Assembly: GCF_003201475.1 (NCBI RefSeq)
Contig: NZ_QJJK01000003.1
Span: 310,001-374,000 of the forward strand
Reading direction: 5' to 3'
DNA length: 64,000 bases
Origin: Chelatococcus asaccharovorans
Lineage (GTDB): Bacteria > Pseudomonadota > Alphaproteobacteria > Rhizobiales > Beijerinckiaceae
Part shown: positions 4,077 through 51,231 of the stretch, in pieces
Layout: each line of letters begins with the position of its first letter
How positions within the stretch are numbered: position 1 is the stretch's first letter
Program-made: the position numbers and the translations under genes
The notes under the pieces: model-generated
What the model was told of the DNA's origin: nothing
The model's database searches: none
Seen by the model: the letters and a program-made list of their open reading frames with translations, nothing else

Positions 4077-4246
4077 CTAGTGGTTCGTTTCCAGCATTTG
4101 CATCCCATTTGTATCGGCCCCGAGGGCAAATGTTGGAAACAGGAGAACCACTGGGATGTTTATGATTCGAGTGGAATTGCCGAATTTGACATTCGGTCTC
4201 GAGGTCGACATCGGGCGGGTACCGAATGTCAAATTCATTCCACTAG
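4077..4246. repeat. Two-hairpin structured repeat, copy A
   Basis: Hairpin 1: outer arm AGTGGTTC (4079-4086) pairs with GAACCACT (4145-4152). Its inner arm 4087-4101 pairs with 4126-4140, and AGGA bulges out on the 3' side. Hairpin 2: outer arm AGTGGAAT (4170-4177) pairs with ATTCCACT (4237-4244). Its inner arm 4182-4197 pairs with 4221-4236, and TGCC bulges out on the 5' side. The same arrangement occurs at 51063-51231 with pair-preserving differences. It lies between the XRE-cupin gene and the M19 homologue. Confidence 0.85.
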
Positions 4247-4324
4247 CGTCCGCGCGCCGGCCCTGGTTTGAAGCCCGACCGACGCCGTTTTCAGCGACCG
4301 TACAAGCGCACAGGGAGTCCAGAG

Positions 4325-5323
4325 GTGTCCGAACTGTCCCATATCGTCATAGACGGCCTGAACTGCGCCTCGATGAACCGCGACCAGATGGTGCGCACCC
4401 ATGCGGGCGGCATCACCGCGCTCAACTATACCTGCCTGCCGGTGCTTGGGGATCTCGTTGCGTCCCTGACGCGCCTGCAGGCCGTGCGCGACACCATCGA
4501 GGCCATGCCCGATATTGCCCTGATCGTATCCTCGACCGGAGATATCCGCGCGGCCCACGAGTCGGGACGCGTCGGTGTCATCCTCGGCACCCAGAACTCC
4601 ACCATGGTCGAGGCCGACGTGGCCTTGCTCGGCGTATTCCGGACGCTCGGTATACGTATCCTGCAGCCGACCTACAATGAGCAGAACGCCTTTGGCTATG
4701 GTGCATCCTTCGATGCGAGCACGGATCGCGGCATCACCGAGGCCGGACGCGCCTGGCTCGCGGAAATGCACAAGCAGCGCCTGATCGTCGACCTGTCGCA
4801 TTGCGGCCCGACGACGACCGACGACTATCTGGCCGCGGCCCGCGCGCCCGTCGTCATCAGCCATGCGAATGCCTATGCGTTGTGTCCCAACCCGCGCAAC
4901 AAATCGGATGCGCAGGCCCGCGCCGTAGCCGAGACGGGCGGGCTCATCGGCGCCGTGATGTGGTCGCCCCTGGTCAAGATCGAGCGCCGGCCGGTGCTCG
5001 ACGATTATATCGACCATGTCGCGCATTGGGTGAACGTCGCCGGCGTCGACCATGTCTCTTTCGCGACCGACCTTGTCGAGCCGCATCCGGACCCGGTGAA
5101 ATGGGACAAGGCGGTCGGTCCGAACGGCGAATATCCGAACATCACCGGCATCCTCGGCGATTGGTACCGCTACGAGACCCGTCTCAACACCGGCTTCCAG
5201 TCGATGAAGGACACGCCCGGCATCTGGGAGGGCATGCGTCGTCGTGGTTTTGGCGCATCGGACATCGAGAAGATCGCCTCCGGCAACTGGCTACGGGTGA
5301 TGCACGACATCTGGGGCGCGTGA
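4325..5323 (+). CDS. M19 (membrane dipeptidase)-family homologue A with altered metal site
   Basis: A 332-residue TIM-barrel protein of the renal/membrane dipeptidase family, which normally cleaves dipeptides with a two-zinc centre. GTG 4325 is chosen because GGGAG lies 7 bp upstream and it aligns with the start of the paralogue; an ATG at 4268 is possible. Family landmarks are present: LIVDLSHCG (His159), VVISHANA (His180), RNKSD and VSFATD (Asp249). The N-terminal HxD ligand pair (normally DGHxD) reads DGLNC, and the family Glu ligand is Gln90 (GTQNS). No signal peptide is seen, so it is probably cytoplasmic. It is convergent with its paralogue at 5486-6490. The true substrate is unknown. 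Confidence 0.85.
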   Translation: MSELSHIVIDGLNCASMNRDQMVRTHAGGITALNYTCLPVLGDLVASLTRLQAVRDTIEAMPDIALIVSSTGDIRAAHESGRVGVILGTQNSTMVEADVALLGVFRTLGIRILQPTYNEQNAFGYGASFDASTDRGITEAGRAWLAEMHKQRLIVDLSHCGPTTTDDYLAAARAPVVISHANAYALCPNPRNKSDAQARAVAETGGLIGAVMWSPLVKIERRPVLDDYIDHVAHWVNVAGVDHVSFATDLVEPHPDPVKWDKAVGPNGEYPNITGILGDWYRYETRLNTGFQSMKDTPGIWEGMRRRGFGASDIEKIASGNWLRVMHDIWGA

Positions 5324-5364
5324 GGCTCTCCCTTCCCCCAATACGGGGAGCCGATCCGTGCAGG

Positions 5365-5404
5365 GTCCAGTCGGGCTTCCAAGCCCGACTGGACTTTCTT
5401 TTTT
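5365..5404 (+). terminator. Rho-independent terminator
   Basis: A perfect 14-bp stem (5365-5378 with 5381-5394) closed by a 2-base loop is followed by TTTCTTTTTT. It sits 41 bp after the stop of M19 homologue A and separates the two convergent M19 genes. Confidence 0.93.
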
Positions 5405-5485
5405 GGGAAGGATGTGGAACCGCAGATCTGTGTGATCCGACCCTACAGGAGAATCCGTTGGCTCGCCCAAGCGGAGGGGAGGGAG

Positions 5486-6490
5486 CTATTCCCCCCAGAC
5501 CTCGGCATAGACGCGCAGGAGATTTCCGCCCATGACCTTGTCGATGTCCGATGCCCGAAAGCCCTTGCGTTTCAAGGCGTCGCCGAGATGCGGCGTGTCG
5601 GTCAGGCTCTCGAAACCTTCGGTCATGCGACAGGTGAAGATGAACCACGGGCCCATGACACCGGTGACTTCGGGATATAGGCCCCGCGGGCCGAAGGACT
5701 TCTGCCACTGCTCCTCGGACGCATAGGATCCTTCCGACAGGTCACTGCCGAAGGCCACATGGTCGATCCCGATGAGATTGACGACATAGGCGACCTGCTC
5801 CGCCCAGTCATCCAGGGTCGGACGTGTCGCGTGCCGGGTCATCGGCGGCCAGGGCGTCAGGCCGACCGTGCCACCGGTGCGTGCCGCGGCAAGGATGAGA
5901 TCGTCGGGGATGTTGCGCAGGCTGTCGCACAGCGCCCGGGCGTTGGAATGGCTGAAGATGACGGGTCGCTTCGAGCGGGCGAGAACGTCGGCCGCCGTGC
6001 GGTACCCGACATGGGACAGGTCGATCAGCATCCTGAGCTCGTTCATGAGCGCGACCCATCGCTCGCCCTTTTCGGTCAGGCCATCGTCGCCCCCCTTGGC
6101 CAGCACGCCGCAGCCCAGGGTGTTGCGTTCCATATAGGTCGGCTGAAGGATCCTGAAGCCGATGCGCTGCAGGATGCGCAGAAGTTCGAGGTCATCTTCG
6201 ACGACCACCGAATTCTGGGCACCGAGAATGATGGCGAGCTTGCCCGCCGCCTTCGCGGCCTTGATATCGGCGACGCTGCGGGGAATGACGGCGATGTCCT
6301 TGTTTTCGGCGATCACCGCCAGGGTGCGCGCCAGTGCGGGCATGGCTGTTGCGAAATCATGGGGTGGACGGATCGCTGTCAGATTGATGGCCGTCACGCC
6401 GCCTTCCAGCGTGCGCAGCATCTGCTCGCGGCTGACGCGCGCGCAATTCAATCCGTCGACGACAACGGCATCGGGTGAGACTGATGGCAT
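5486..6490 (-). CDS. M19 (membrane dipeptidase)-family homologue B with altered metal site
   Basis: A 334-residue paralogue of the gene at 4325. ATG 6490 is preferred to TTG 6511 because AAGGA lies 5 bp upstream. It shares the same departures from the dipeptidase metal site: DGLNC at residues 12-16 replaces DGHxD, and Gln92 (GAQNS) replaces the family Glu. His160 (LIDLSH), His181 (IFSHSNARAL), RNIPDD and the VAFGSD Asp are kept. No signal peptide. The shared pattern shows that the change predates the duplication and is not a random mutation. Convergent to copy A; its promoter region carries a 16-bp inverted repeat at 6519-6572. Confidence 0.85.
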   Translation of the reverse strand: MPSVSPDAVVVDGLNCARVSREQMLRTLEGGVTAINLTAIRPPHDFATAMPALARTLAVIAENKDIAVIPRSVADIKAAKAAGKLAIILGAQNSVVVEDDLELLRILQRIGFRILQPTYMERNTLGCGVLAKGGDDGLTEKGERWVALMNELRMLIDLSHVGYRTAADVLARSKRPVIFSHSNARALCDSLRNIPDDLILAAARTGGTVGLTPWPPMTRHATRPTLDDWAEQVAYVVNLIGIDHVAFGSDLSEGSYASEEQWQKSFGPRGLYPEVTGVMGPWFIFTCRMTEGFESLTDTPHLGDALKRKGFRASDIDKVMGGNLLRVYAEVWGE

Positions 6491-6518
6491 GATGGTCCTT
6501 GCACTCCCCAAGTGTGGT

Positions 6519-6572
6519 GGATTTGAAATTCGTCACAGAATGGATCGAGTGTGATGGACGAATTTAAAATCC
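6519..6572. promoter_or_regulatory. 16-bp inverted repeat, candidate operator
   Basis: GGATTTGAAATTCGTC (6519-6534) is mirrored by GACGAATTTAAAATCC (6557-6572) with 15 of 16 matches and a 22-base spacer. It lies 29 bp upstream of M19 homologue B. Related bases occur upstream of the binding protein at 3345-3360, so it may be the site of the XRE-cupin regulator. Confidence 0.45.
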
Positions 6573-6599
6573 GAAAACCACACGAGAATTATTAGCTTG

Positions 6600-6674
6600 C
6601 TAGTGTCCTGATCGAATCCGAAATTCGAACGACGCCTCCCGGAAATGATACGAATTTCGGATTCGGGACACTAG
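6600..6674. repeat. Single-hairpin relative of the structured repeat
   Basis: Outer arm CTAGTGTCC (6600-6608) pairs with GGACACTAG (6666-6674). The inner arm 6613-6627 pairs perfectly with 6651-6665. A 4-base TGAT bulge sits on the 5' side between the arms. The CTAGTG ends, 4-base one-sided bulge and 15-bp inner arm match the hairpins at 4077-4246 and 51063-51231. It lies between M19 homologue B and the 3' end of the next binding-protein gene. Confidence 0.75.
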
Positions 6675-6718
6675 TCATACGGAACACGTGGGATAGGCGG
6701 GTTCTTGCGGCAGAACGA

Positions 6719-8248
6719 TCAAGGCTTGAGCGTGACGCCGTAGAAAAAGAAGCGCTGATCGCCGCGCGGCCGGAAGCCTTCGAGCTTCTTCGACACGCCG
6801 TAGAAGTCGAAGCCGCCGTAGAGAAAGACGATCGGCGCCTCTTCATGCATGAGCTGCATCGCTTTGCGATAAATGTCGGTGCGCTTCGCCCTGTCCGTCT
6901 CGCGCGCACCCGCGTCGATCAGCGCGTCGAGTTCCGCGTTGCGCATGTAGGAGTAACGCCAGGAGGAGCGATATTGCGCGACCTGGAAGTCCGGATCATC
7001 GAGCGGCGCAAGCCCCAGGAAAGCCATCGGCTGCAATTCCCGCGCGCGGAGCTGGCGCAGGAACTCTCCGGCCTCGAGCGAGACCATCCTGGCACGGACG
7101 CCGACCTTGGCCAGCATCCCGGCGATGGCCTCGGACACCTCGCGATCCTGGGCATAGCGGCCCGAGGGAAACTTGAAGACGATCTCGAAACCGTCGGGAT
7201 AGCCCGCCTCGCGCAGCAGCGCCTTCGCCTTCTCAGGGTCATAGGGATAGTCGGCGAGCGACGGGTCGAAGCCGAGCTGTTCCTTGCGCAGCACCTGGCC
7301 GTTGAGCGGAAAGGCACGACCGGCAAACAGGGTCTCGATGATGAGCTTCTTGTCGACCGCATAGTTCATCGCCTGCCGGACCTTTTTGTCCTTGAGCGGA
7401 CTTGGATGTTCGTCGAGCGACGACAGGATGAGCTGGAAGATCCGGTAGCTCGGCACCTCAATGACCGCGCGATCGGGCAGGCGCGCGATCTCGCCGATGG
7501 CGGTGATCGGAATATTGGTGGCGATATCGAATTCACCGATGGTGAAACCCGCGACGCGCGCGGCGTCATCGGGCACCGGACGCCAGACGAGACGGTCGAT
7601 ACCCCTGGGGCCGTTACCCTTGGGGCCGTTACCCCAGTATTGGGCGTTCCGCTCCATCACGAGCTGGCTGTCCTTAACCCATTCCTTCAGGACGAAAGGC
7701 CCTGTGCCGATGGGTTTCTGGCCATAGGCCTCCAGTCCGACGCTCGCCCAATAGGCCGGCGGCGTGACATAGACCTGGGTCAGCATCAACTCGAAGGGCG
7801 GGTAGGGGAATTTGGTATGGACCGCGACGCTCATGTCGTCGAGCTTCTCGACGCGATCGATGGCCGCGGCATAGTTGGCGTAGGCGGGCGCCTGTTTCGG
7901 GTCGAGAAAGACCTTGAAACTATGCACCACCGCATCCGCATTGAGCGGCTCGCCATTGGTGAAGCTGACGCCCTTGCGCAGGGTGAGCTTCATGGTCGTG
8001 GGGGCGACGAGTTCCCAGCTCTCCGCGAGGAGGGGTTCGGTCTTGCCTGTCGCGGGGTTGTTCCAGAGCAGGGGCTCGACGATCACGCCGCCGGCATTGA
8101 GATTGTCGGAGGCCGTCGTGCCGTTGGGCCAGAGCGTCTGCGGATCGAAGCCCTGGGCGACGGTCACGGTGTTCGTCTGCGCCGCGGCCACCGTCGTGGA
8201 CGCGGCAAGCGCGAGCGCAATAAAGGCACGGCGCACAGCATGCAGCAT
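6719..8248 (-). CDS. Family-5 extracellular solute-binding protein
   Basis: A 509-residue periplasmic binding protein, paralogous to the one at 1821-3332. ATG 8248 is chosen because GGGGAG lies 8 bp upstream and it is followed at once by a signal peptide (LHAVRRAFIALALAASTTVAAAQ); the longer open frame to 8296 adds an unlikely charged extension. Shared family motifs are LRKGVSFTNGEPLNADAVVH, QKPIGTGPFVLKEWVKD and RQAMNYAVDKK. An in-frame 15-bp tandem duplication near 7606-7633 inserts a repeated GPKGN unit that the paralogue lacks. No permease or ATPase gene is adjacent, so it probably serves a transporter encoded elsewhere, perhaps the one entering at base 1. Confidence 0.93.
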   Translation of the reverse strand: MLHAVRRAFIALALAASTTVAAAQTNTVTVAQGFDPQTLWPNGTTASDNLNAGGVIVEPLLWNNPATGKTEPLLAESWELVAPTTMKLTLRKGVSFTNGEPLNADAVVHSFKVFLDPKQAPAYANYAAAIDRVEKLDDMSVAVHTKFPYPPFELMLTQVYVTPPAYWASVGLEAYGQKPIGTGPFVLKEWVKDSQLVMERNAQYWGNGPKGNGPRGIDRLVWRPVPDDAARVAGFTIGEFDIATNIPITAIGEIARLPDRAVIEVPSYRIFQLILSSLDEHPSPLKDKKVRQAMNYAVDKKLIIETLFAGRAFPLNGQVLRKEQLGFDPSLADYPYDPEKAKALLREAGYPDGFEIVFKFPSGRYAQDREVSEAIAGMLAKVGVRARMVSLEAGEFLRQLRARELQPMAFLGLAPLDDPDFQVAQYRSSWRYSYMRNAELDALIDAGARETDRAKRTDIYRKAMQLMHEEAPIVFLYGGFDFYGVSKKLEGFRPRGDQRFFFYGVTLKP

Positions 8249-8584
8249 GAAGCGAGCTCCCCTTCTGACGTCGCGTGGGCTCGGCCTTCTCGTCATCTCG
8301 ACTTAAATAGAGCCGTATAATGCCGGCAACGCTGAAATTTTAGAGATCGTATTCGCAAAGCGGGCAGTCGAAAAGGAATATTTCACGCGCTTTCACGCCT
8401 CCGCGCAAAGTGTCGACAGAACGCGCGGCCAAAGATGCCCGGCAGGACCCAATTCGGCCAATCCGGCTTCCAGCGAGCCCGGAACGCCCCGACATCCGCT
8501 TTGGCGATCGGCGTTTGTTAAAAAGAACAAGGCGCAGGCGATACCTTCGCCCGCGCCTGCGGATGGCCTCTTAAGGGAGGGCGG
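8249..8584. other. Intergenic: leader of the binding-protein gene and terminator region
   Basis: 336 bases without a gene. The proximal part should carry the promoter of the minus-strand binding-protein gene at 8248, but I see no convincing -35/-10 pair. The distal part contains the terminator of the sugar-permease operon. Confidence 0.5.
8518..8557 (-). terminator. Rho-independent terminator of the sugar ABC operon
   Basis: Read on the minus strand, an 11-bp stem (8547-8557 with 8531-8541, one G-T pair) with a 5-base loop is followed by TTGTTCTTTTT. It lies 28 bp past the stop of the MalG-type permease gene. Confidence 0.85.
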
Positions 8585-9469
8585 TCAGCCTTTGACGGCG
8601 CCCGACGTCAGGCCCGAGACGAGATAGCGCTGGATCACGAGGAAGAAGGCTGCCGCTGGCAGCGCGAAAACGACGGATGCCGCCATCATCTCGTCCCAGG
8701 CCACCGAATACTGGCTTTCGAACGACGTGAGGCCGACCGACAGCACCCAGTTGCTTTGCGTTGCAATGAGTGTCCGCGCCAGGAAGAACTCATCCCAGCC
8801 GGTGATGAAGGAGAAGGCCGTCACCACCACGAGGCCCGGGATCGCGAGCGGCAGGGTCACGCGGTAGAAGGCTCCCATGCGGCTGCAGCCGTCGATCTGC
8901 GCCTGTTCCTCGAGGTCGATGGGAATGCGGTCGAAGAAGCCCTTCATCAGCCAGGTCGCCAGCGGCAGGATGAAGGCCGCGTCGGCGATCGCCAGCCCGA
9001 TCAAGGTGTTATAGAGGCCAAGCTGCCGGAAGATGACATAGAGCGGCACGACGATCAGCGTCGCCGGCAGCATCTGCGAGAACAGGATGAAGATCCCGAA
9101 AGCGCCCGTCATCTTGCCGCGGAAGCGCGACAGGGCGTAGCCCGCGTTGATCGCGACGATGGTGCAGAAGATCGACGTGGCGGAAGCGACGACGGCCGTA
9201 TTCGTCAGCCAGGTCAGAACCGCACGTTCGGTGAAGATCTTCTCATAGGCCTTGAACGAGATGCTGCTCGGGATGATGCGCGGCGGCCATTCGAACAGGG
9301 AGCTGCTGCCGAGGGACGACACGAACATCCAGTAATAGGGAAAGATCACGAGGCCTGCGCACAGGAGGGTGAAGGCGAAGGCCGCCGCGCTCCGGAGGAA
9401 GGCGAGGCGCGCCGAGCCGGCGGCGGAGACCGCGCCCATGGTCCTGGCCGAATTGACGAAGGATCTCAT
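8585..9469 (-). CDS. Carbohydrate ABC transporter permease, MalG type
   Basis: A 294-residue inner-membrane permease for a sugar-type importer. Six hydrophobic segments are visible, beginning with AFAFTLLCAGLVIFPYYW. The EAA loop that contacts the ATPase is EEQAQIDGCSRMGAFYRVTL, typical of the MalG/UgpE branch. Its ATG overlaps the stop of the MalF-type gene by 4 bp (ATGA), showing translational coupling. No MalK/UgpC-type ATPase gene lies in this operon; such importers often share an ATPase encoded elsewhere. A strong terminator follows at 8518-8557. The sugar is not identifiable from sequence. Confidence 0.94.
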   Translation of the reverse strand: MRSFVNSARTMGAVSAAGSARLAFLRSAAAFAFTLLCAGLVIFPYYWMFVSSLGSSSLFEWPPRIIPSSISFKAYEKIFTERAVLTWLTNTAVVASATSIFCTIVAINAGYALSRFRGKMTGAFGIFILFSQMLPATLIVVPLYVIFRQLGLYNTLIGLAIADAAFILPLATWLMKGFFDRIPIDLEEQAQIDGCSRMGAFYRVTLPLAIPGLVVVTAFSFITGWDEFFLARTLIATQSNWVLSVGLTSFESQYSVAWDEMMAASVVFALPAAAFFLVIQRYLVSGLTSGAVKG

Positions 9470-10383
9470 GGCGCCTCGCTCCGGCGTGCGATCAGGAAGA
9501 AATAGGCGAGGCTGAAGCAGAGCAGGATGACGAGGAGAACCGCGCCCACCGCGGCTGCGTAGCCGATCCGCTGATATTGGAATGCGACGTTATAGGTGAG
9601 GATCGACAAGGTTTCCGTCGCGCGGGCCGGCCCGCCGCCCGTCATCGCATAGATCATCGTCACGCGGCGGAAGGAATTGAGGATCAGGATCAGGATGAGG
9701 ATGACGTTGACCGCCCTCAATCCCGGCAGCGTCACATGGATGAAGCGCCGGAAGACGCCCGCACCATCCATCATCGCCGCTTCATACTGCTCGTCGGGGA
9801 TGGTCTGCAGGCCGGCAAGCAGAATGAGCATGGCAAAGGGGAACTGCTGCCAGCTCGTCACGAGCACGAGCGCCGGCATGGCGAGCCCGGCGCTCGTCAG
9901 CCAGGCAGCCGGCGCACTGATGATCCCGGCCTCGACCAGAGCATAATTGATGACGCCATACTGGGCATCGAGCATCCACACGAAGATCATCACGGCGACG
10001 ACCTCGGGAATGGCCCAGGGCATGATGAACAGCGTGCGAATGAAGCCGCGGCCCGGGATCTCGCGGTTGAGCAGCAAGGCGAATCCGAGGCCGAGGCCAT
10101 AGGTGCAGAGCATCGTCGCCAGGCCGTAGGTGAAGGTCACGCTTACCGAGTTCCAAAAGGCCGGATCGCTCCCCAGCGCAACATAGTTCGCAAGGCCGAT
10201 GAACTGTCCCTCGCTATAGCGCAACAACCGGGTGTTGAAGAAGGAGAGCGTGATACCCCGCACAATGGGATAAAATAGAAGCCCCGCCATGATGATTCCG
10301 GCCGGCGCGATGAGCCAGACGGGCATCCAGTCAAAAGGCGTCGCTCGCGACGGCCGTGGGGCCATCGATGGATCGCGCTTCAT
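9466..10383 (-). CDS. Carbohydrate ABC transporter permease, MalF/UgpA type
   Basis: A 305-residue inner-membrane permease, partner of the MalG-type gene with which it overlaps 4 bp. The EAA loop reads EQYEAAMMDGAGVFRRFIHV, and GGPARATETLSILTYNVAFQ near the C-terminus is characteristic of the UgpA/MalF family. A candidate operator, GGTATTAATTGGTATCAT, lies 18 bp upstream of the ATG and resembles one before the binding-protein gene at 11942. Both may therefore answer to the GntR/LacI-type regulator at 12039, and the permeases may have a promoter or internal control of their own. Confidence 0.94.
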   Translation of the reverse strand: MKRDPSMAPRPSRATPFDWMPVWLIAPAGIIMAGLLFYPIVRGITLSFFNTRLLRYSEGQFIGLANYVALGSDPAFWNSVSVTFTYGLATMLCTYGLGLGFALLLNREIPGRGFIRTLFIMPWAIPEVVAVMIFVWMLDAQYGVINYALVEAGIISAPAAWLTSAGLAMPALVLVTSWQQFPFAMLILLAGLQTIPDEQYEAAMMDGAGVFRRFIHVTLPGLRAVNVILILILILNSFRRVTMIYAMTGGGPARATETLSILTYNVAFQYQRIGYAAAVGAVLLVILLCFSLAYFFLIARRSEAP

Positions 10384-10400
10384 GAGATTGCTCGCAAACT

Positions 10401-10418
10401 GGTATTAATTGGTATCAT
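10401..10418. promoter_or_regulatory. Candidate GntR/LacI-type operator before the MalF gene
   Basis: GGTATTAATTGGTATCAT lies 18 bp upstream of the MalF-type start. It shares GGTA-N5/6-GGTATCAT with 11956-11972, the site upstream of the binding-protein gene in the same cluster. Confidence 0.45.
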
Positions 10419-10639
10419 GCCTTCAGACCAACCGGGGCCATTGCGGGTGCGCCCGCGGCGTCCGAGAGCATTCGCGCGCTGCCGGATGCAGGGCGTTCGT
10501 GTCGCGCGCATTGTTGTCGCAAAGGGGGCGCGCATCTCCCAAAGCTGCGCATCCCAACACGCTTCATCCTTCCGGGTTCGGGTCGCCCACGGCACGGGGA
10601 CGATGCGCATTCGGGGAGCGTCCCTCCCGCGTGAGAGGC

Positions 10640-10667
10640 CCCACCGGCATCGCCTGATGCCGGTGGG
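10640..10667 (-). terminator. Intercistronic hairpin after the sugar-binding-protein gene
   Basis: A perfect 12-bp stem (10640-10651 with 10656-10667) with a 4-base loop lies about 30 bp past the binding-protein stop, without a good T-run. It may act as an mRNA 3'-end stabiliser or partial terminator, so that the binding protein is made in excess over the permeases. Confidence 0.6.
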
Positions 10668-10697
10668 ATATCGGCGCCCCCCCCAGGTCGGGGCTGT

Positions 10698-35167: not shown

Positions 35168-35572
35168 ATGGACGGTATCCTTCTGGTCAATTTCATCGAC
35201 TTTCTCGTCGATTTCGTCATATCGGTCATCCTCGTTGCGCTCTATCTCGCCGTTTATACCTTCGCGACGACCCACAACGAGTTCGAGCTCATCCGCCGCA
35301 ACGTCATCTCCGCGGCACTGTCGCTGGGGCTCAGCCTCATCGGTTTCGCGTTGCCGCTGTCGAGCGCGATCGTCAATACGACGACCGTTCTGGCGCTGGT
35401 GCTATGGGGTATCATCGCGCTCGTCGTGCAGATCATCGTGTATTGGCTCGTGCGCATTCTCGTTCCGAATTTGACGGGACGCATTGCGCAGGGCGAGATC
35501 GCCGCAGCATGCCTGCTCGGCGCGGCCTCGCTCTCGGCCGGCATCATCAACGCGGCCTGCATGACCTTCTAG
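35168..35572 (+). CDS. DUF350 family membrane protein
   Basis: A 134-residue inner-membrane protein with four hydrophobic segments (FLVDFVISVILVALYLAVY; NVISAALSLGLSLIGFALPL; TTTVLALVLWGIIALVVQII; AAACLLGAASLSAGIINAAC). The pattern, with a short polar THNEFELIRR loop and charged residues near TM3-4, matches the DUF350/YjfL family, whose function is not established. It starts 36 bp after the VOC gene and may share its transcript. Confidence 0.75.
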   Translation: MDGILLVNFIDFLVDFVISVILVALYLAVYTFATTHNEFELIRRNVISAALSLGLSLIGFALPLSSAIVNTTTVLALVLWGIIALVVQIIVYWLVRILVPNLTGRIAQGEIAAACLLGAASLSAGIINAACMTF

Positions 35573-35765
35573 TGGGTTGAACGGTGTTCTAGGACCAATC
35601 GACATTCGAGAATTGCCAAGAGATACCAACGTCATCACCGGGCTTGTCCCGGTGATCCCGACCGGAAAGGCGCCTCGGTTAATCGGGATGGCCGGGACAA
35701 GCCCGGCCATGACAGCTGAAAGCGCTGAATGTTGATCGGTCCAAATGGGTTGAACGGCGTTCTAG
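35573..35765. repeat. Nested direct/inverted repeat element
   Basis: TGGGTTGAACGGTGTTCTAG (35573-35592) recurs as a direct repeat at 35746-35765 with 19 of 20 matches. Inside it, the arm 35592-35607 and its inverted partner 35727-35742 match at 14 of 16 positions. Near the centre lies a palindromic repeat with CACCGGGCTTGTCCCGGTG (35636-35654) and GCCGGGACAAGCCCGGC (35690-35706). No coding potential was seen. The gene-free stretch continues to the riboswitch at 35838. Confidence 0.7.
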
Positions 35766-35837
35766 CGGGATAAATGACGTTCAGACGCGATACATGAGGG
35801 TTGCGGTTGACACCGGGACGCTCCATTTTAGGAAGAC

Positions 35838-35919
35838 ATGGCTTGGGGTGCCTCGCGTTCCGCGGGGCTGAGATCATACCCATCGAACCTGTCTGGGTCA
35901 TGCCAGCGTAGGGAGCCTC
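35838..35919 (+). promoter_or_regulatory. TPP riboswitch (THI element)
   Basis: The conserved thi-box segments appear in order: GGGGTGCC, GGGGCTGAGA, ACCC, GAACCTGTCTGGGTCATGCC and GCGTAGGGAG. This is the thiamine-pyrophosphate aptamer. The purine-rich AGGGAG at its 3' end also serves as the ribosome site 6 bp before thiO, so TPP binding probably blocks translation directly. It controls thiOSGE. Confidence 0.96.
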
Positions 35920-35921
35920 GA

Positions 35922-37076
35922 ATGGTTCAAGATAATCGCGCAGGTCAGGGCAGGGTTGCCGTGATCGGCGCCGGCGTGATCGGCCTGTCGATCGCCTGGC
36001 GCCTCGCCCAGCGCGGCCTCACCGTCACGGTTTTCGACAAGGGGGAAGCCGGCCAGGGGGCGAGCCACGCCGCCGCCGGCATGCTGGCCGCCTGCGCGGA
36101 AATCGAGCCGTCCGAAGAGCGGCTGCTGACCCTCAACAGGGCAAGCCAGGCGCTCTGGCCCGACTTCGCCGCCGAGCTCGAGGCGGCAAGCGGCGAGCCC
36201 ATTGAGCTGCGCACCGAGGGCACCTTGATGGTGGCGCTCACGGCCGACGACGCGGCGAAGCTGCGCAACCATGCGGATCTGCAGGCGCGGCTCGGCCTGC
36301 CCGTGTCGTGGCTGACCGGTCGCGACATCAGGCGGCTCGAGCCGGCGCTGGCCCCCGGCGTCGCGGGTGGCGTGTCCTCGCCGGAGGATCATCAGGTCGA
36401 CAACCGAAAGCTCGCCAAGGCGTTGCGGATCGCGGCCCTGCGGGCCGGTGTCACGTTGTCCGAGAATACGCCGGTCGAAGGCCTTTCCATCAGGGACGGC
36501 CGCATCGAGGGCGTTCTTACCGCAGGCGGCCTCTGTGAGGCGGACAGCGTGGTGCTGGCGGCCGGCCCCTGGTCCCGCGGCATTCCCGGCCTTCCGGCTG
36601 AAGCGCGCCCGGCCGTTCGGCCGATCAAGGGCCAGATGCTCTCCCTCGCCATGGATCCGGCGGCGCCACTATTGCGGCATGTGGTATGGGCGCCTGGCGT
36701 CTATCTCGTGCCACGCCTGGACGGCCGCCTCATCATCGGCGCGACCGTCGAGGAAAAGGGCTTCGATACCGCAATGACCGCCGGCGGCCTGCTCTCGCTG
36801 CTGCATGCGGCGTGGCGCGCACTCCCCGGCATCGAGGAATTGCCGGTCCTCGAAACCTGGGTCGGCCATCGTCCCGGCAGCCGCGATGACGCACCGATCT
36901 TCGGTGCCGGCCCGGTCGAGGGGCTCGTCTATGCCACGGGACACCATCGCAACGGCATCCTGCTGACGCCGATCACGGCTGATCTCATCAGCGATTTCGT
37001 CGTGAGCGGCCGGCTCGATCCCTTGGCCGCACCCTTTGGCTTCGGACGCTTCGCGCGTCCCGCGGCGGCGGCCTGA
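35922..37076 (+). CDS. thiO: Glycine oxidase ThiO
   Basis: A 384-residue FAD-dependent amine oxidase that turns glycine into iminoglycine for the thiazole half of thiamine. Evidence: the Rossmann motif VAVIGAGVIGLSIAWRLAQR, the GASHAAAGMLAACAEIEPSE segment, VLAAGPWSRG, RPIKGQM and the C-terminal YATGHHRNGILLTPITA. ATG 35922 lies just after the riboswitch; the frame runs into the aptamer only by chance. First gene of thiO-thiS-thiG-thiE. thiC, often first in this operon in Rhizobiales, is absent. Confidence 0.96.
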   Translation: MVQDNRAGQGRVAVIGAGVIGLSIAWRLAQRGLTVTVFDKGEAGQGASHAAAGMLAACAEIEPSEERLLTLNRASQALWPDFAAELEAASGEPIELRTEGTLMVALTADDAAKLRNHADLQARLGLPVSWLTGRDIRRLEPALAPGVAGGVSSPEDHQVDNRKLAKALRIAALRAGVTLSENTPVEGLSIRDGRIEGVLTAGGLCEADSVVLAAGPWSRGIPGLPAEARPAVRPIKGQMLSLAMDPAAPLLRHVVWAPGVYLVPRLDGRLIIGATVEEKGFDTAMTAGGLLSLLHAAWRALPGIEELPVLETWVGHRPGSRDDAPIFGAGPVEGLVYATGHHRNGILLTPITADLISDFVVSGRLDPLAAPFGFGRFARPAAAA

Positions 37077-37384: not shown

Positions 37385-37387
37385 GCC

Positions 37388-38912: not shown

Positions 38913-38955
38913 GCTGCTATGCAGCCCGCCGGGGATTGACACCAGGACAGCCCCC

Positions 38956-39137
38956 GCGCCGATCCCTCCCCTTCAGGGGAGGGTGGCCTCGCGTGAGCGA
39001 GGTCGGGTGGGGGACACGAGGCAAGAGGCGCTGCCCCGTGGCCAGTACGTGTTCCTGCCTTTCGGTCGGGTCAGCGTCAGGTGGGCCCCACCCGGCGCCT
39101 GCGGCGCCACCCTCCCCTGAAGGGGAGGGATCGGCGC
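38956..39137. repeat. 182-bp MITE-like element with perfect 32-bp terminal inverted repeats
   Basis: Bases 38956-38987 are the exact reverse complement of 39106-39137 (32 of 32). Each end is itself palindromic around CCCTCCCCTTCAGGGGAGGG. The 118-base interior has no open frame of note and contains a further GC-rich palindrome near 39080-39095. Confidence 0.8.
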
Positions 39138-39236
39138 GGCGCGTCTCCCGCGTGTCTTCTCCGGCCTCGCGTAGCGACGGGAAGGGGATCCCGACGGTCA
39201 ACCTGCACAGACTGGGAGGAAGACCATGCCTCGCGC

Positions 39237-43177: not shown

Positions 43178-44599
<1,422 letters not shown>

Positions 44600-44606
44600 G
44601 GACGAC

Positions 44607-44846: not shown

Positions 44847-44906
44847 GGCCGCGCTGAGGCGCATGACCGCAGACAGGCCGGCCGACCGGTTTTTGAGGAA
44901 ACGACC

Positions 44907-46316
44907 ATGCCCGCCAATATCCTGATGCCAGCATTGTCGCCCACGATGGAGAAGGGCAACCTCGCCAAGTGGCTGAAAAAGGAAGGCGACAAGGTCTCGT
45001 CCGGCGACGTGCTCGCCGAGATCGAGACCGATAAAGCAACGATGGAGGTCGAGGCGGTCGACGAGGGCATCCTCGCCAAGATCGTCGTTCCCGAAGGCAC
45101 CGCGGACGTGCCGGTGAACGAGCTCATCGCGGTGATCGCCAGCGACGGCGAAGACCCCAAGGCCGTCGCCGCCAGCGCAGGCACGGGTGGTGCAGCGGCT
45201 GCGCCCGCGAAGAGCGAGGCGCCCAAAGCCGAGCCGCCGAAGAAGACCGAGCCGCCCCAGGACGCCCCGGCCTCGGCTCCGGCCGAAGCCAAGGCATCCC
45301 CCGCGCCGCAGCCGGTCGCGCAACCGCAACCGGCGGGCAAGCCCGCAGCCGGCGAGGGTGGTCGGGTGTTCGCTTCGCCGCTCGCCAGGCGCCTTGCCCG
45401 CGAAGGCGGCCTCGACATCGCCGCGATCCAGGGCTCCGGCCCGCATGGCCGTATCGTCGAGCGTGACGTCAAGGCGGCGCTCGTCGGAGGAACGGCCAAG
45501 GCCGCGCCGGCCCAGCCGGCGGCAGCGCAGGCGGCCGCGCCTGCTCCCGCGCCCGAGGCGGCGCTCGCCACCGGCCCCAGCGACGAGGCGGTGAAGAAAC
45601 TGTTCGAGCCGGGCAGCTACGAGGAAGTGCCGCATGACCAGATGCGCAAGATCATCGCGCGCCGGCTGGTCGAATCCAAGCAGACCGTCCCGCATTTCTA
45701 CCTGACGGTCGATTGCGAGCTCGACGCGCTGCTGGCGCTGCGTGAGCAGATCAACAAGGCCGCCCCGACGGACAAGGACGGCAAGCCCGCCTACAAGATC
45801 TCGGTGAACGACTTCGTCATCAAGGCGCTGGCACTGGCGCTGATGCGCGTGCCGGAGGCCAATGTCGCCTGGACGGAGAGCGTCATGCTCAAGTTCAAGC
45901 AGGCCGACGTCGGCGTCGCGGTCTCGATCCCGGGCGGGCTGATCACGCCGGTCGTGCGCAAGGCCGAAACCAAGTCCTTGTCCACCATCTCCAACGAGAT
46001 GAAGGACTATGCGGCGCGGGCGCGGACGCGCAAGCTGAAGCCCGAGGAATATCAGGGCGGTTCGACCGCCGTGTCCAATCTCGGCATGTTCGGCATCAAG
46101 GACTTCGCCGCCGTGATCAATCCGCCCCATGCCACCATCCTGGCGGTCGGGGCCGGCGAGAAGCGCGTCGTCGTCAAGAACGACGCCCCGGCCATTGCCA
46201 CCATCATGTCGGTGACCTTGTCGACCGACCACCGCGCCGTCGATGGCGCGCTCGGCGCCGAACTCATCTCGGCCTTCAAGCAGCTCATCGAGAACCCGAT
46301 GGGCATGCTGGTGTGA
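44907..46316 (+). CDS. pdhC: Dihydrolipoamide acetyltransferase (E2) of pyruvate dehydrogenase
   Basis: A 469-residue E2 core protein. It has one N-terminal lipoyl domain ([18 protein letters not shown]), a long Ala/Pro/Glu linker, a peripheral subunit-binding domain ([37 protein letters not shown]) and a catalytic domain ending in [15 protein letters not shown] with the active-site His and Asp. The lipoyl domain is nearly identical to that of pdhB, suggesting domain copying. About 190 bp separates it from lpd. Confidence 0.97.
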
Positions 46317-46503
46317 GGCCCGCGGCGCCACGCCCGCGCTTGCAGCGCGGAGGCGCCGTGCGCTTGACATCGGCGCGGGACGCGGCCCTCCACTGAGACT
46401 TGGGGCCGTTTCTCGCTCAAAGACCTCTCCCGAGTGGAGAGAGCATGGAGTTTCACTACGCTCGCCCCGCATCCGGATGGAGCGGGGGCATCTGGAGGCG
46501 TGA

Positions 46504-47943
46504 ATGGCCGATCAATACGACATCATCGTCATCGGTGGCGGTCCCGGCGGGTATGTGGCCGCGATCCGCGCCGCCCAGCTTGGCTTCAAGACGGCCGTCG
46601 TGGAGCGCGAGCATCTCGGCGGCATCTGCCTGAACTGGGGCTGCATCCCGACCAAGGCCTTGCTGCGCTCGGCGGAGATCTACCACTACGCCACCCATGC
46701 CAAGGACTACGGCCTCGTGCTCGAAGGCACGATCCGGCCCGATCCGGCCGCCGTCGTGAAGCGTTCACGCGGGGTATCGACCCAGTTGAACAATGGCGTC
46801 GCGTTCCTCATGAAGAAGAACAAGATCGACGTCATCTGGGGTCAGGCAACCGTCACGAAGCCCGGCGAAATCGTCGTCAAGGATGCGGCCAAGCCGCGTG
46901 ACGGAACCGCCGCAGCGCCCAAGGGCACCAAGGGCGCCGGCACCTATGCGGCCAAGCACATCATCGTCGCGACCGGTGCGCGCCCGCGCGTCCTGCCCGG
47001 GCTCGAGCCGGACGGCAAACTGGTCTGGACCTATTTCGAGGCCATGGTGCCGGAGACCATGCCGAAGTCGCTGCTGGTCGTCGGCTCCGGCGCCATCGGC
47101 ATCGAATTCGCGTCCTTCTACCGCACGCTCGGCGCGGAGGTGACGGTCGTCGAGGTGCTGCCGCAGATCCTGCCGGTGGAAGACGCCGAGATCGCCGCAC
47201 TGGCGCGCAAGCGCTTCGAGAAGCAGGGCATCAAGGTGATGACCGGCGCCAAGGTGACCAAGCTCGACAAGAAGGCGGACAGCGTCACCGCGACGATCGA
47301 CGACGGCAAGGGCGGCACCCAGAGCCTCACCGTCGATCGCGTCATTTCGGCGGTGGGCGTGGTCGGCAATGTCGAGAATCTCGGCCTGGAGGCGCTTGGC
47401 GTCACCCTCGACCGCGGGACGATCAAGACCGACGGTTTCGGCAAGACGTCTGTCGCGGGCATCTATGCGATCGGCGACGTCGCCGGCCCGCCGATGCTGG
47501 CCCACAAGGCCGAGCATGAGGGCGTCATCTGTGTCGAGGCCATCAAGGGCCTTCACCCGCATGCCATGGACAAGCTGATGATCCCCGGCTGCACCTATTG
47601 TCACCCGCAGATCGCCTCGGTCGGCCTGACGGAAGCCAAGGCCAAGGAGGCGGGCTACGACATCCGCGTCGGCCGCTTCCCCTTCATCGGCAACGGCAAG
47701 GCGATTGCGCTCGGGGAGCCGGACGGCCTCGTCAAGACCATCTTCGACAGGAAGACCGGCAAGCTCCTCGGCGCGCATATGGTGGGCGCCGAGGTGACGG
47801 AGCTGATCCAGGGCTTCGTCATCGCCATGAACCTGGAAACGACCGAGGAAGAGCTGATCAACGCCGTCTTCCCGCATCCGACCCTGTCCGAGATGATGCA
47901 TGAAAGCGTCATGGACGCCTACGGACGCGTGATCCACACGTGA
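46504..47943 (+). CDS. lpdA: Dihydrolipoamide dehydrogenase (E3)
   Basis: A 479-residue FAD disulfide oxidoreductase that reoxidises E2 lipoyl groups with NAD+. Evidence: the FAD motif YDIIVIGGGPGGYVAAIRAA, the redox disulfide GGICLNWGCIPTKALL, the NAD motif LLVVGSGAIGIEFASF, YAIGDVAGPPMLAHKAEHEG and the C-terminal His-Glu in FPHPTLSEMMHE. A small insertion near residues 120-140 (KPRDGTAAAPKGTKGAGTY) is Ala/Lys/Gly rich. It is last in the pdh block. Confidence 0.97.
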   Translation: MADQYDIIVIGGGPGGYVAAIRAAQLGFKTAVVEREHLGGICLNWGCIPTKALLRSAEIYHYATHAKDYGLVLEGTIRPDPAAVVKRSRGVSTQLNNGVAFLMKKNKIDVIWGQATVTKPGEIVVKDAAKPRDGTAAAPKGTKGAGTYAAKHIIVATGARPRVLPGLEPDGKLVWTYFEAMVPETMPKSLLVVGSGAIGIEFASFYRTLGAEVTVVEVLPQILPVEDAEIAALARKRFEKQGIKVMTGAKVTKLDKKADSVTATIDDGKGGTQSLTVDRVISAVGVVGNVENLGLEALGVTLDRGTIKTDGFGKTSVAGIYAIGDVAGPPMLAHKAEHEGVICVEAIKGLHPHAMDKLMIPGCTYCHPQIASVGLTEAKAKEAGYDIRVGRFPFIGNGKAIALGEPDGLVKTIFDRKTGKLLGAHMVGAEVTELIQGFVIAMNLETTEEELINAVFPHPTLSEMMHESVMDAYGRVIHT

Positions 47944-47968
47944 TCGGCGTGGCACGCAGGCCCGGCGC

Positions 47969-48217
47969 GTGAGCGGCTGGCTGCCCGTCGTCACCGTGCT
48001 GCTCGCCGTTGTCGGCACGGGCCTTGTCTACGGCCGGGCGGCGTCGTGGCCGTGGAGGCTTGCTCAGTCGCTCGTCGGGGCGGTGATCGGCATCGGCGTC
48101 GTCATGCTGGCCCTGGAGGCCCCGCTCGGGCCCTGGCTCAGCCCGGTCATGGCGCTCGCCCTTTCGGCGGTCGTCGTTGGCCTCTCGTTCTATCTCAAGG
48201 CACGCGGCCCGAAGTAG
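47969..48217 (+). CDS. Hypothetical small membrane protein
   Basis: An 82-residue protein with three predicted TM segments (WLPVVTVLLAVVGTGLVYG, QSLVGAVIGIGVVMLALEA, MALALSAVVVGLSFYL) and a short basic C-terminus. I do not recognise a family. It starts at GTG 25 bp after lpdA on the same strand, so cotranscription is likely. A membrane protein of unknown function is all that can be supported. Confidence 0.55.
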   Translation: MSGWLPVVTVLLAVVGTGLVYGRAASWPWRLAQSLVGAVIGIGVVMLALEAPLGPWLSPVMALALSAVVVGLSFYLKARGPK

Positions 48218-48343
48218 CGCGCCAGATGCAGCCCACCGGCATTGTCCACCCCTGATTTCCTGGCTTGAGCGGAACCGTTTGCGTCCGGTCGCGTTTCATT
48301 GGCAACGTGTGCGGAACACATGTCAAAGCAAGGGGCAGGACAT

Positions 48344-48598
48344 ATGCAGGGTGTTGGCATCATCGGGGCGATCATCGTCGGTATCCTGGCCGGATATATC
48401 GCCGAAAAGGTCATGAGCCGAAGCCATGGGCTTCTGACCAATCTTATCGTGGGCCTGATCGGCGCCTTCATCGGCCCCTTCATTCTCAACGTGCTCAATC
48501 TCATGCCGACGAGTGCCGGGTTCTGGCCGAGCCTGGTGGTCTCGACCGTCGGCGCCGTTGTCTTGCTCTTTATTCTGGGGCTCTTCCAGAAGCGGTGA
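48344..48598 (+). CDS. GlsB/YeaQ/YmgE family stress-response membrane protein
   Basis: An 84-residue inner-membrane protein of the transglycosylase-associated family. Typical glycine-rich TM segments are visible: GIIGAIIVGILAGYIAEKVM, NLIVGLIGAFIGPFILNVLN and VVSTVGAVVLLFILGLFQ. Members are induced by acid or general stress, but their molecular role is unclear. ATG 48344 fits the family N-terminus and follows GCAGGA; ATG 48299 would add an unlikely extension. It is convergent with the acyltransferase gene ending at 48609. Confidence 0.85.
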   Translation: MQGVGIIGAIIVGILAGYIAEKVMSRSHGLLTNLIVGLIGAFIGPFILNVLNLMPTSAGFWPSLVVSTVGAVVLLFILGLFQKR

Positions 48599-48608
48599 GG
48601 CTGCCCGC

Positions 48609-49775
48609 CTATTTCGTCGCCGGCAGATCACGGCCGGCGACCCCGTTGGCGAGGTCCGCGGGAGATGTTCTGCGCGACCATTCGCGCAGCGGTCGCTCGA
48701 TCAGGCGATAGGAGAGGGCGGCGGCGATCACGCTTCCGCCGAGATAGGCCGCGAGCAGGCCGTGGGCGGCGAGCGCCTGCACAAAGGCGGATTGCCCGCT
48801 CGCCTCCATCCCCGCGCTGAGCGGCCGGTAGAGCACCCAGCCGACGCATTTCGCCGCGATGAGATGCCAGAGATAGATGCCGTAGGACAAAGCGCCGAGC
48901 TTCACCAGAGCCGGGCTCTGAAGGGCGCGTGAGATGATCCCGCCCTGATGGGCGAAGACGATGACCATCGCGGGAAACAGCGCGACGATCCCGAACACGG
49001 CCGGCGTCGTATTGTCGATCAGGGCAAGCCCCGCCAGCAGCAGGGCGACGAGCCCGATTTCGACGAGGCTCATCAGCCCGGCGGACCGCCAGAGCCGGGC
49101 CCGGCGTGTGACCTCGAACAGCCGCCAGGCCAGGACGCCGGCGAAGAAGCCGAAGAGCCCGCGGCCGATGCCAAGCCCCGTGACGGAGAGGAAGGTGTCG
49201 CGCCCGGGATCCGCAGGGCTTGAAAAGACGATCGCCAGGCCAAGACAGCCGAGCGCCCCATAGAGAGCGACGCGCAGGCGATCATGGCTGCCGGTGACGA
49301 GCACCACGCTGGCGAAGACGAGATAGCTCCAGATTTCCGCGGAGATGCTCCAGCTCGGCCAGTTGAAGATGTCGATGGCGGTTGTCCCGAAGGCATGGAG
49401 CAGGGCGGCCATGCGCAGGAAATCACCGAGTGTCGCATCCGCCTGGTGACCGCTGCCGTTCGCGCCCGCCCGCTGCATCGCCAGAACCATGAGGCCGAAG
49501 ACGGCAAGCGTGGTGATATGCAGGGGATAGAGGCGCCAGAAGCGTCGCCACGCAAAGCGCGTCACCTCGCGCGGTCCCGACAACCGGCTCTCGTAGTTCA
49601 TCGCGATGACGAAGCCGGACAAGACCAGGAAGAAGTCCACCGCCAGGTAGAACGACTGCACGAAGGCCGTCTCGCTGCCCAGGAAGGGCACCGGCGCATG
49701 CAGGAGGGCGACCGCCAGGGCGAAGATGCCGCGCCAACTGTCGAGCGCGGCAATCTGTGCGGCCTCGCCGCGCAT
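48609..49775 (-). CDS. Acyltransferase 3 family protein (OafA/YrhL-like), copy 1
   Basis: A 388-residue multi-TM protein of the Acyltransferase_3 family, which O-acetylates or acylates surface sugars. It begins with the family pattern LDSWRGIFALAVALLHAPVP (conserved His) followed by DFFLVLSGFVIAMNYESRL and RFWRLYPLHI. About ten hydrophobic segments follow. It ends with the typical basic tail RLIERPLREWSRR. The start overlaps the stop of copy 2 (ATG 49775, or GTG 49778), so both are translated together. The polymer modified is unknown. Confidence 0.9.
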   Translation of the reverse strand: MRGEAAQIAALDSWRGIFALAVALLHAPVPFLGSETAFVQSFYLAVDFFLVLSGFVIAMNYESRLSGPREVTRFAWRRFWRLYPLHITTLAVFGLMVLAMQRAGANGSGHQADATLGDFLRMAALLHAFGTTAIDIFNWPSWSISAEIWSYLVFASVVLVTGSHDRLRVALYGALGCLGLAIVFSSPADPGRDTFLSVTGLGIGRGLFGFFAGVLAWRLFEVTRRARLWRSAGLMSLVEIGLVALLLAGLALIDNTTPAVFGIVALFPAMVIVFAHQGGIISRALQSPALVKLGALSYGIYLWHLIAAKCVGWVLYRPLSAGMEASGQSAFVQALAAHGLLAAYLGGSVIAAALSYRLIERPLREWSRRTSPADLANGVAGRDLPATK

Positions 49776-50941
49776 CACGAGGTCTGCCCTTCGGGGATGG
49801 GGTCAAGCTGCGGCACGCTGCGGGATGCGCCCCGGGGCTTCAGGGCGAGCGCCGGCTTCTCGATGAGGAGCCACGAGGCCAGGGTCACCATGAGGACCAC
49901 GGGCAGGACCGCGACGATCAGGAGCCAGGGACTTGAGGGCCGCAGGAACTGGAAGACGGCCTGCTCGAGGGGAAAGCCATAGAGATAGATGCCGTAGGAG
50001 AAATCGGCGCCGGCGAGCAACGTCAGCGGCCCCTTCGTCAGCCCGGCCCCCCCTGTCAATTCCGCTCCCATGAAAGAAAGAGGGCCGTTCAGCCAGGTTG
50101 TCGGCAGGAACGCGAGCCAAAGCGCGCCGTAGCATTCCGCAAGGATCATGACCGGCAGCCCGAATAGCGTTTTGGCGAGGGCGAGCGACAGCAGGATGCC
50201 GCCGATAACGAAGCGGCCGTCCAGCGGCATCCGGCTGCGATAGCGCCAGGCTCCAACGCCCAGCGCGAAACACATGCCGAGCCGCGCGAAGGAATGAACC
50301 GAGTCCGGCAGGACGATCCGGGAGGGCAGGCTCATCAGGACAAAACCCAGCGCGCAGGCTCCAAGCACGACCGCCGGGCGGCGCTTCAACAGGCCAGCGC
50401 CGCCAAGGGCGAGGAGGGCGTAGCAGGCAATCTCGTATTTGATGGTCCAGATGGTGATCATGGCCTCGTGGGCCGGCAGGCCGTCGAACACGCCGGGCAA
50501 GGTCGCATGGCCGTTGAAGCGGGGGACAATCTCGAGGAGGAAAAGCCAGGTGCGGCTGTCGCGCAGATAGGCCCCGAGCGGCAGGGCCGTGACGAGCGGC
50601 CCGATGATGAAGGCCGTGAAAAGCGTCGCCGCGACAAGGCCCGGCAGAAGCCGCAGGGCGCGCGCCTTCGCATAGGCCGCGGTACCCCTGCGCTCCAGGC
50701 TTTGTACGACGAGAAAGCCGGACAGCGCGAAAAACAGGTTCACGGCATGCTGTCCGAGATCGAGGCCGGTCTCGTCAAGGAGCGGTTCGCTCACGCCACC
50801 GCCGCGGAAGACGAAAAAGGCATGGCTGACGAGCACACAGCCGGCAAGGACGTGCCGTAACGACAGGAAATTGTCCCGGCCCCGGGCCAGGCCGTCAGAA
50901 ACCGTCGCAATAGGGGACATCCATTCCCGTCCTTGGGACAT
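49775..50941 (-). CDS. Acyltransferase 3 family protein (OafA/YrhL-like), copy 2
   Basis: A 388-residue paralogue-type acyltransferase. NFLSLRHVLAGCVLVSHAFF carries the conserved His, then LFFALSGFLVVQSLERRG and about ten TM segments; it ends SWLLIEKPALALKPRG. ATG 50941 and ATG 50920 both have AAGGA-type ribosome sites; I list the longer form. Sequence similarity to copy 1 is limited, so the two may modify different sites of one polysaccharide. The pair is inserted between the pdh block and lipA. Confidence 0.88.
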   Translation of the reverse strand: MSQGREWMSPIATVSDGLARGRDNFLSLRHVLAGCVLVSHAFFVFRGGGVSEPLLDETGLDLGQHAVNLFFALSGFLVVQSLERRGTAAYAKARALRLLPGLVAATLFTAFIIGPLVTALPLGAYLRDSRTWLFLLEIVPRFNGHATLPGVFDGLPAHEAMITIWTIKYEIACYALLALGGAGLLKRRPAVVLGACALGFVLMSLPSRIVLPDSVHSFARLGMCFALGVGAWRYRSRMPLDGRFVIGGILLSLALAKTLFGLPVMILAECYGALWLAFLPTTWLNGPLSFMGAELTGGAGLTKGPLTLLAGADFSYGIYLYGFPLEQAVFQFLRPSSPWLLIVAVLPVVLMVTLASWLLIEKPALALKPRGASRSVPQLDPIPEGQTS

Positions 50942-51062
50942 AGTGAGCTCATCCTTCAATGCTCGCGCAGGATACATGCCAACGACAGGATATAGACCAA
51001 CTATGAGCCGAACCTTCCTTGTGACGGACGGCCAAGCTCTATATGTAGGAGCGACCGGTGTG

Positions 51063-51231
51063 CTAGTGGTTCGACTCCGACATTTGCATCCGCCTGACAC
51101 GGGCCTTTGAGCAAATGTCGGAGTCAAGAGAACCACTAGCAAGTTATTGGTTCTAGTGGAGCTTTTGAATTTGACATTTGATCTGGAGCTCGATGTCGGG
51201 CGGGACTCAAATGTCAAATTCGCTCCACTAG
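51063..51231. repeat. Two-hairpin structured repeat, copy B
   Basis: Hairpin 1: outer arm CTAGTGGTTC (51063-51072) pairs with GAACCACTAG (51130-51139). The inner arm 51073-51087 pairs perfectly with 51111-51125, with an AAGA 3' bulge. Hairpin 2: CTAGTGGAGC (51153-51162) pairs with GCTCCACTAG (51222-51231). The inner arm 51167-51181 pairs with 51207-51221, with a TTTT 5' bulge. The loop of hairpin 2 shares TCGGGCGGG with copy A (4077-4246). It ends 20 bp before the lipA start. Confidence 0.88.

Follow-up and report, generated by a model that had tools for sequence, protein, structure and literature searches.

A CTAG-bounded two-hairpin repeat of Alphaproteobacteria is probably a miniature element moved by IS630-family transposases

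The DNA analyzed here (the window) comprises 64,000 nucleotides of Chelatococcus asaccharovorans, positions 310,001 to 374,000 of contig NZ_QJJK01000003.1, in a 7.25-Mb genome assembled into 40 contigs. An earlier note, made from the sequence alone, had described two copies of a two-hairpin repeat at 4077-4246 and 51063-51231, with a 4-base bulge on the 3' side of the first hairpin (H1) and another on the 5' side of the second (H2). Both the coordinates and this arrangement proved accurate (Table 1). The gene after 4077-4246 carries a peptidase M19 domain, in line with the M19 gene that the note had placed beside one copy, and the gene downstream of 51063-51231 carries a radical SAM domain (Pfam); the window copies adjoin, and never overlap, the Pfam-supported domains tested. 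Sequence comparison leads us to propose, with good confidence, that the element is a non-autonomous miniature inverted-repeat transposable element (MITE) of ~165 bp that inserts at CTAG and is moved in trans by a transposase of the IS630 family.

The complete element follows the plan CTAG-H1-CTAG-spacer-CTAG-H2-CTAG, with a CAAnnTATGATT-like spacer of ~13 nt, and measures ~165 bp plus the second CTAG. The two window copies are 74% identical and represent two types, B (4077-4246) and A (51063-51231); two internal CTAGs of the former are altered, to CTGG and CGAG. The stretch 6600-6674, which the note had named for a covariance model alongside the two copies, is half of a third complete element, which lies reversed at 6509-6674 (type C) and whose left flank reads CAAG in place of CTAG. 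The homology of type C to types A and B spans the whole element, including the spacer, but type C has the reverse orientation in the window. H1 and H2 lie 12 to 20 nt apart in all 174 pairs from the fetched loci (overlapping loci counted); no pair encloses a gene (0/174), which led us to reject an autonomous copy of that build, and inspection by eye of the open reading frames listed upstream of six truncated or odd copies revealed no transposase. Two loci of genome G165 (L312 and L317) hold one-hairpin forms of 68 and 79 bp, with one outer end each of H1 and H2, which may be deletion products.

Table 1. Coordinates of the two-hairpin elements and their parts in the window.
Feature	Position	Strand	Details
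Complete element, subfamily B	4077..4246	+	H1 4077-4154, spacer 4155-4167, H2 4168-4246
AGGA bulge, inner (3') arm of H1, subfamily B copy	4141..4144	+
TGCC bulge, inner (5') arm of H2, subfamily B copy	4178..4181	+
Third complete element, subfamily C, reversed	6509..6674	-	H1 6600-6674, spacer 6587-6599, H2 6509-6586
Complete element, subfamily A	51063..51231	+	H1 51063-51139, spacer 51140-51152, H2 51153-51231
Outer end 1, subfamily A copy	51063..51086	+	CTAG + 12 nt + GACATTTG; like IS630 (IS870/ISAr1-group) ends
AAGA bulge, inner (3') arm of H1, subfamily A copy	51126..51129	+	inner CTAG-to-motif distance becomes 16 nt
TTTT bulge, inner (5') arm of H2, subfamily A copy	51163..51166	+	inner CTAG-to-motif distance becomes 16 nt
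Outer end 2, subfamily A copy	51208..51231	-	CTAG + 12 nt + GACATTTG

Many differences between the two copies preserve base pairing, just as had been claimed: three two-sided changes and one change from G-T to A-T in H1, and, in H2, two changes in each of the outer and inner arms. The accompanying suggestion that the loop keeps 'TCGGGCGGG' does not extend to the family. By pair counts, which served here to check the note's other refuting outcome (no significant covariation), covariation is evident in an alignment of 37 elements, of which 2 come from the window, 1 from genome G017, and 34 from named genomes (a set reduced from 66 by thinning at 90% identity); 17 of 50 pairs show two-sided changes, occupying 115 cells compared with 30.2 in shuffles. 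Pairing is found in 97.9% of cells and drops to 41% or less when the partner is slid by 1 to 3 columns. Since the outer arm of H2 was fixed by the retrieval pattern, H1 is the unbiased half; taken alone, it shows two-sided changes in 13 of its 25 pairs.

The absence of further copies from the genome would have spoken against the repeat, and copies proved abundant. Full-length matches to the 51063 copy occupy at least 42 other places at 90 to 96% identity, a lower bound because 40 of 116 candidates were scored. Types B and C, for which 40 of 327 candidates were scored, account for at least 14 (80 to 95% identity) and at least 6 further near-full-length places, respectively. A chance origin of the two window copies is excluded. 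The pattern CTAGTG-N50..80-CACTAG gives 115 matches in the window genome, compared with 50 for a reversed-pattern control that contains the common GATC, and 0, 2, and 1 matches, unlike this family by appearance, in three same-genus genomes. A stricter 22-nt end pattern matches 49 times in the window genome and is present in 7 of 149 genomes of an order-wide sample, where its reversed control has no match. It also matched at least 107 stretches of the genome contig collection, several of which share one genome; going by their titles, these 107 presumably comprise 95 from Hyphomicrobiales, 4 from Caulobacterales, 2 from Rhodobacteraceae, 1 from Telmatospirillum, and 5 unplaced. The family is thus spread over many Alphaproteobacteria, chiefly Hyphomicrobiales. 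Copies also form tandem arrays with a shared CTAG and a 165-bp period, within which contigs C23 and C35 end. A recurrent neighbor gene was considered at the 107 named loci and set aside: the largest cluster joins 11 loci (a listed member resembles an ABC transporter ATPase), and the 13 other clusters listed hold 2 loci each.

Orthologous sites lacking the element reveal where it inserts. The site of 6509-6674 is empty in three same-genus genomes (G001, G002, and G003), reading CTCCC-ATAG-TC, and in the window genome it reads CTCCC-CAAG[element]CTAG-TC. The site of 4077-4246 is likewise empty in all three (in G003, divergence is too high to align the exact point), and in none of them does it hold CTAG; therefore, it documents the absence of the element rather than its target. 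Nested insertions complement these sites. At locus L003, a type A copy sits at an internal CTAG of a type C copy, with the halves of the latter flanking it, a net gain of 165 bp, and CTAG retained on both sides; a second, independent nesting of A in C, with both C halves present, occurs in a Rhodobiaceae metagenome-assembled genome (L221). Empty orthologous sites and the two nestings together show movement into CTAG. Among 162 sequence-distinct copies (60 of types A/B from the window genome and 102 from others), CTAG is found at 134 left and 140 right ends, with GTAG at one left end among those listed. The positions directly inside TA vary least, with G in 160 of 162 copies at the left, versus 154 of 162 for the flanking C, and C in 161 of 162 at the right, although for the named loci the retrieval pattern itself included the right end. 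Comparison with the empty sites fits insertion at TA (CTAG) with duplication of the target, the duplicated length being indistinguishable between TA and CTAG.

The ends of the element resemble those of IS630 insertion sequences (ISs). A complete 1152-bp IS630 of Nitrobacter winogradskyi, found by scanning IS630 loci for CTAGTG, ends in CTAG+TGGATCGCGTCT+GACATTTG and CTAG+TGGATGGAATCT+AACACTTG and encodes a transposase with DDE_3 and helix-turn-helix (HTH) domains. Relatives of this transposase occur in 709 plasmid records at E 1e-20 or better, and those listed are mostly annotated as IS630 family, ISAr1 and IS870 among them. A first batch of 12 further IS copies contains 11 with a CTAGTGG left end (all except that of A. 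vitis) and 11 with a group-type CTAG right end (all except that of Sphingobium V4). Scored as the best match over 20 chosen IS ends, at positions outside CTAG and out of 20, the six ends of types A/B reach 15-17/20 and one type C end 16/20, the latter with the A. vitis/S. meliloti/Sphingobium group; 0 of 20000 shuffles reached the observed match (three of ten ends tested). Against all 22 first-batch IS ends, the A/B ends score 10-16/20 with right ends and 8-17/20 with left ends. For outer end 2 of the 51063 copy, the nearest are the left ends of the N. hamburgensis (16/20) and B. elkanii (17/20) IS630 copies. Being short (~165 bp), repeated, and devoid of a transposase gene, with terminal inverted repeats like those of an autonomous IS630 (less clearly so at the second type C end), the element has the makeup of a MITE.

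In these ISs, the TAG of the right-end CTAG is also the transposase stop codon in 10/10 annotated first-batch copies and in 2/2 group copies added later (L328 and L329), and in 5/9 annotated IS630 copies outside the group; a 1993 paper by Fournier et al. states in its title that IS870 needs CTAG to make its stop codon. Most IS630 right ends (copies in L272-L283 and L321-L333) carry GANTC at nt 11-15 from CTAG. We considered this site as a mark of control by the CcrM methylase and dropped the idea, since it stands at nt 11-15 in both IS ends of two Streptomyces, Rhodococcus, Pseudonocardia, and Pseudomonas luteola copies; this does not hold for P. syringae, and the Cupriavidus copy has no visible CTAG end. 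GANTC is more likely part of what the transposase recognizes. A 126-bp CTAG-bounded piece with an IS870/ISAr1-type right end (L201 1305-1430, genome G017) may have arisen from an IS of this kind by internal deletion.

Each element contains four end-like arms, two in each of the two inverted hairpins, and these differ in one regular feature, the distance from CTAG to the motif GAMATTYG. In outer arms, it is 12 nt in all 260 scorable cases (64 of 324 arms lack the exact motif and cannot be scored), equal to that of the best-matching IS ends. Because the bulges sit on the inner arms, spacing there is 14 to 17 nt (15-17 nt in 237 and 14 nt in 1 of 242 scorable arms, with 12 nt in 4; 75 of 317 lack the exact motif). 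The window type C copy has 12 and 12 nt outside and 16 and 15 nt inside, and bulge length is 3-5 nt in 155/158 copies of H1 and 156/159 of H2. We propose that a transposase of the IS630 family (Tc1/mariner superfamily), provided in trans, would bind CTAG and the GAMATTYG lying 12 nt inward on the two outermost arms, excise the element, and reinsert it at the TA within a CTAG, duplicating the target. The ends of types A and B are similar to those of the IS870/ISAr1 group, and one type C end is similar to those of a second IS630 group. The inner-arm bulges, by displacing the inner motif, may stop the inner arms from serving as ends and leave the outer pair as the working ends; probably only this pair works, both hairpins moving as one unit. 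More tentatively, since we rate it as possible and somewhat short of an even chance, the element may embody a built-in choice of ends: it would hold four copies of a transposase end, the inner two paired with the outer two and pushed out of register by conserved 3-5-nt insertions, which would make the two hairpins travel undivided. Pairing and off-register spacing would then both have been kept in different genera and in the A/B and C lineages, which seemingly answer to different IS630 transposases. The spacing rule offers a simple test of end choice by IS630/mariner transposases, and mobilization in trans would tie this class of palindromes to a named transposase family.

N. winogradskyi harbors both an intact transposase and the element, and several observations weigh against extending this pairing to the family. 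Searched in 13 element-bearing genomes and 2 element-poor relatives, the N. winogradskyi transposase has a close intact counterpart, among the 13, solely in its source genome. The window genome lacks a matching intact transposase and contains just a fragment whose presumed first catalytic aspartate reads G (a Pfam search with DDE_3 matched in 7/10 genomes and had no match in the window genome, the fragment being found later by protein search). Elsewhere, there are a copy of 46% identity whose end differs (G017), an 80%-identical transposase in two pieces (G068), and 41-residue pieces at two contig starts (G063, A. vitis). In the order-wide sample of 149 genomes, the element pattern occurs in 7, the transposase in 18, and both in 3, giving 3/7 element-positive genomes versus 15/142 others (Fisher p 0.038); without the window genome, the figures become 2/6 versus 15/142 (p 0.14), so the data do not establish co-occurrence. 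The IS copies fetched from G165, which is among the three double-positive genomes, carry another end, CTAGTGCACTGACGCAAACATAGG, in 8 of 8 cases, and that IS is therefore no matched helper. As for the ends, exact GACATTTG is found in 2 of 11 first-batch left ends (Nitrobacter and Bradyrhizobium), the others varying; one type C end reaches just 13-14/20, and the 16/20 of the other is equaled with a Rhodococcus copy. The alignment shows no excess of further pair types (36, compared with 36.1 in shuffles), and mobility is read from comparison of sequences.

A first alternative is that the elements are MITEs of another transposase, with IS630-like ends owed to common descent alone and the IS870/ISAr1 group not acting as helper. 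The many element-bearing genomes without a close transposase, the co-occurrence that loses significance, and the other ends of the G165 IS all point that way. However, the CTAG target, the 12-nt spacing, and the best matches of the A/B ends fit the IS870/ISAr1 group, including within Nitrobacter, and we judge this alternative unlikely, though worth keeping in view. Perhaps the elements persist after their helper is lost, or rely on other members of the IS630 family.

A second alternative holds that the hairpins act in RNA, as terminators, small RNAs, or mRNA stabilizers, and that selection on RNA folding produced the covariation. The two-sided changes, the near-complete pairing, and the position of the window copies beside, and outside, the Pfam-supported domains tested would all suit such a function. 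Half-changed pairs among the 162 copies, however, are G-T in 114 cells and A-C in 108, whereas RNA tolerates G-U only; this argument is of moderate weight, as the counts take in the decay of young copies. This near equality points to DNA: the covariation is real, but the inverted arms seem to owe it to their DNA, at which level their pairing would be kept. The element has no Rfam match at gathering score, and same-genus genomes lack an insertion at both of the window sites compared. We consider an RNA function very improbable as the explanation of the repeat, and the hairpins may have a secondary effect on transcripts. The earlier note had offered a mobile bipartite palindrome or a structured RNA; its mobile half is borne out by the many copies, empty sites, CTAG nesting, and IS630-like ends, and its RNA half is not supported, given the lack of an Rfam match at gathering score and of a G-T excess. 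This case shows that pair-preserving changes by themselves do not prove an RNA function.

The weakest alternative, hardly tenable and largely refuted, is a REPIN-like pair of inverted repetitive extragenic palindrome (REP) hairpins moved single-stranded by a Y1/HUH transposase (RAYT) reading the bulged hairpin and CTAG: the inverted bulged-hairpin pair as moving unit, the ordered tandem clusters, and the tetranucleotide at the foot recall published descriptions of REPs and REPINs, but Y1_Tnp (PF01797) was found neither in the window genome nor in the 12/12 other element-bearing genomes (0/13; the control was positive in 5 and 6 of 14 named genomes), the target is duplicated at nested sites, the ends resemble those of a DDE-transposase IS, and CTAG predominates at the ends in place of a GTAG (or CGTC) tag.

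If the element is an IS630-moved MITE, this would explain a set of palindromes between genes, abundant and taxonomically broad, that might otherwise be taken for structured RNAs or REPs. Among the closest parallels in the literature covered is RUP of Streptococcus pneumoniae, a small gene-less repeat (107 bp, ~100 copies) with IS630-like ends and a TA-containing target, proposed as moved by IS630-Spn1. RUP, however, appears in the review as one repeat unit confined to one species, whereas here there are two hairpins, four end-like arms, spacing-shifted inner arms, and many genera. The IS870/ISAr1 group shares CTAG at both ends, a similar end sequence, and the motif at 12 nt, but its ISs carry a transposase gene, whereas the element is gene-less and has hairpins. 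REPINs are similar in that an inverted pair of hairpin-forming repeats is the replicative unit and forms tandem clusters; they differ from the element, for which no RAYT was found, in its DDE-type ends, target duplication, and hairpins of ~77 nt, compared with 20-40 bp for REPs. CIR of Alphaproteobacteria, compared by description only, also consists of two stem-loops and a linker and is intergenic, but measures ~110 bp. Correia/NEMIS and other bacterial MITEs have terminal inverted repeats, TA at their termini, and target duplication; unlike the element, all such repeats except CIR fold, according to a review, into one stem-loop through pairing of their ends, without arms and linker. The accessible parts of the open-licence literature covered, including PMC8266576, PMC2573895, PMC2170065, and PMC3733652, contain no description of the two-hairpin family, and neither do those of PMC2229807, PMC3116915, PMC11578231, and PMC6471742; ISfinder lay outside this scope. 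Within it, IS630-type MITEs such as RUP are already known, and the four-armed, out-of-register design and the breadth of the family were not met.

RIMEs, also compared by description only, are likewise repeats of rhizobial intergenic regions. On 250 kb of S. meliloti pSymB, the H1 profile had no match and the H2 and whole-element profiles had chance-level matches only (E 0.3-0.9). The same replicon contains a different repeat of ~105 bp with two palindromic stretches (L284 30058-30161), which we take to be perhaps RIME1.

Other structured stretches occur in the window. In a CTAG-rich segment at 35569-35765, copies of GGGTTGAACGGYGTTCTAG flank a 31-bp inverted repeat on either side; this seems to be a further palindromic repeat, outside the two-hairpin family. 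An inverted repeat with 63-nt arms, 81% complementary, lies at 38945-39148, and a TPP riboswitch scores above the Rfam gathering score at 35834-35931 on the + strand.

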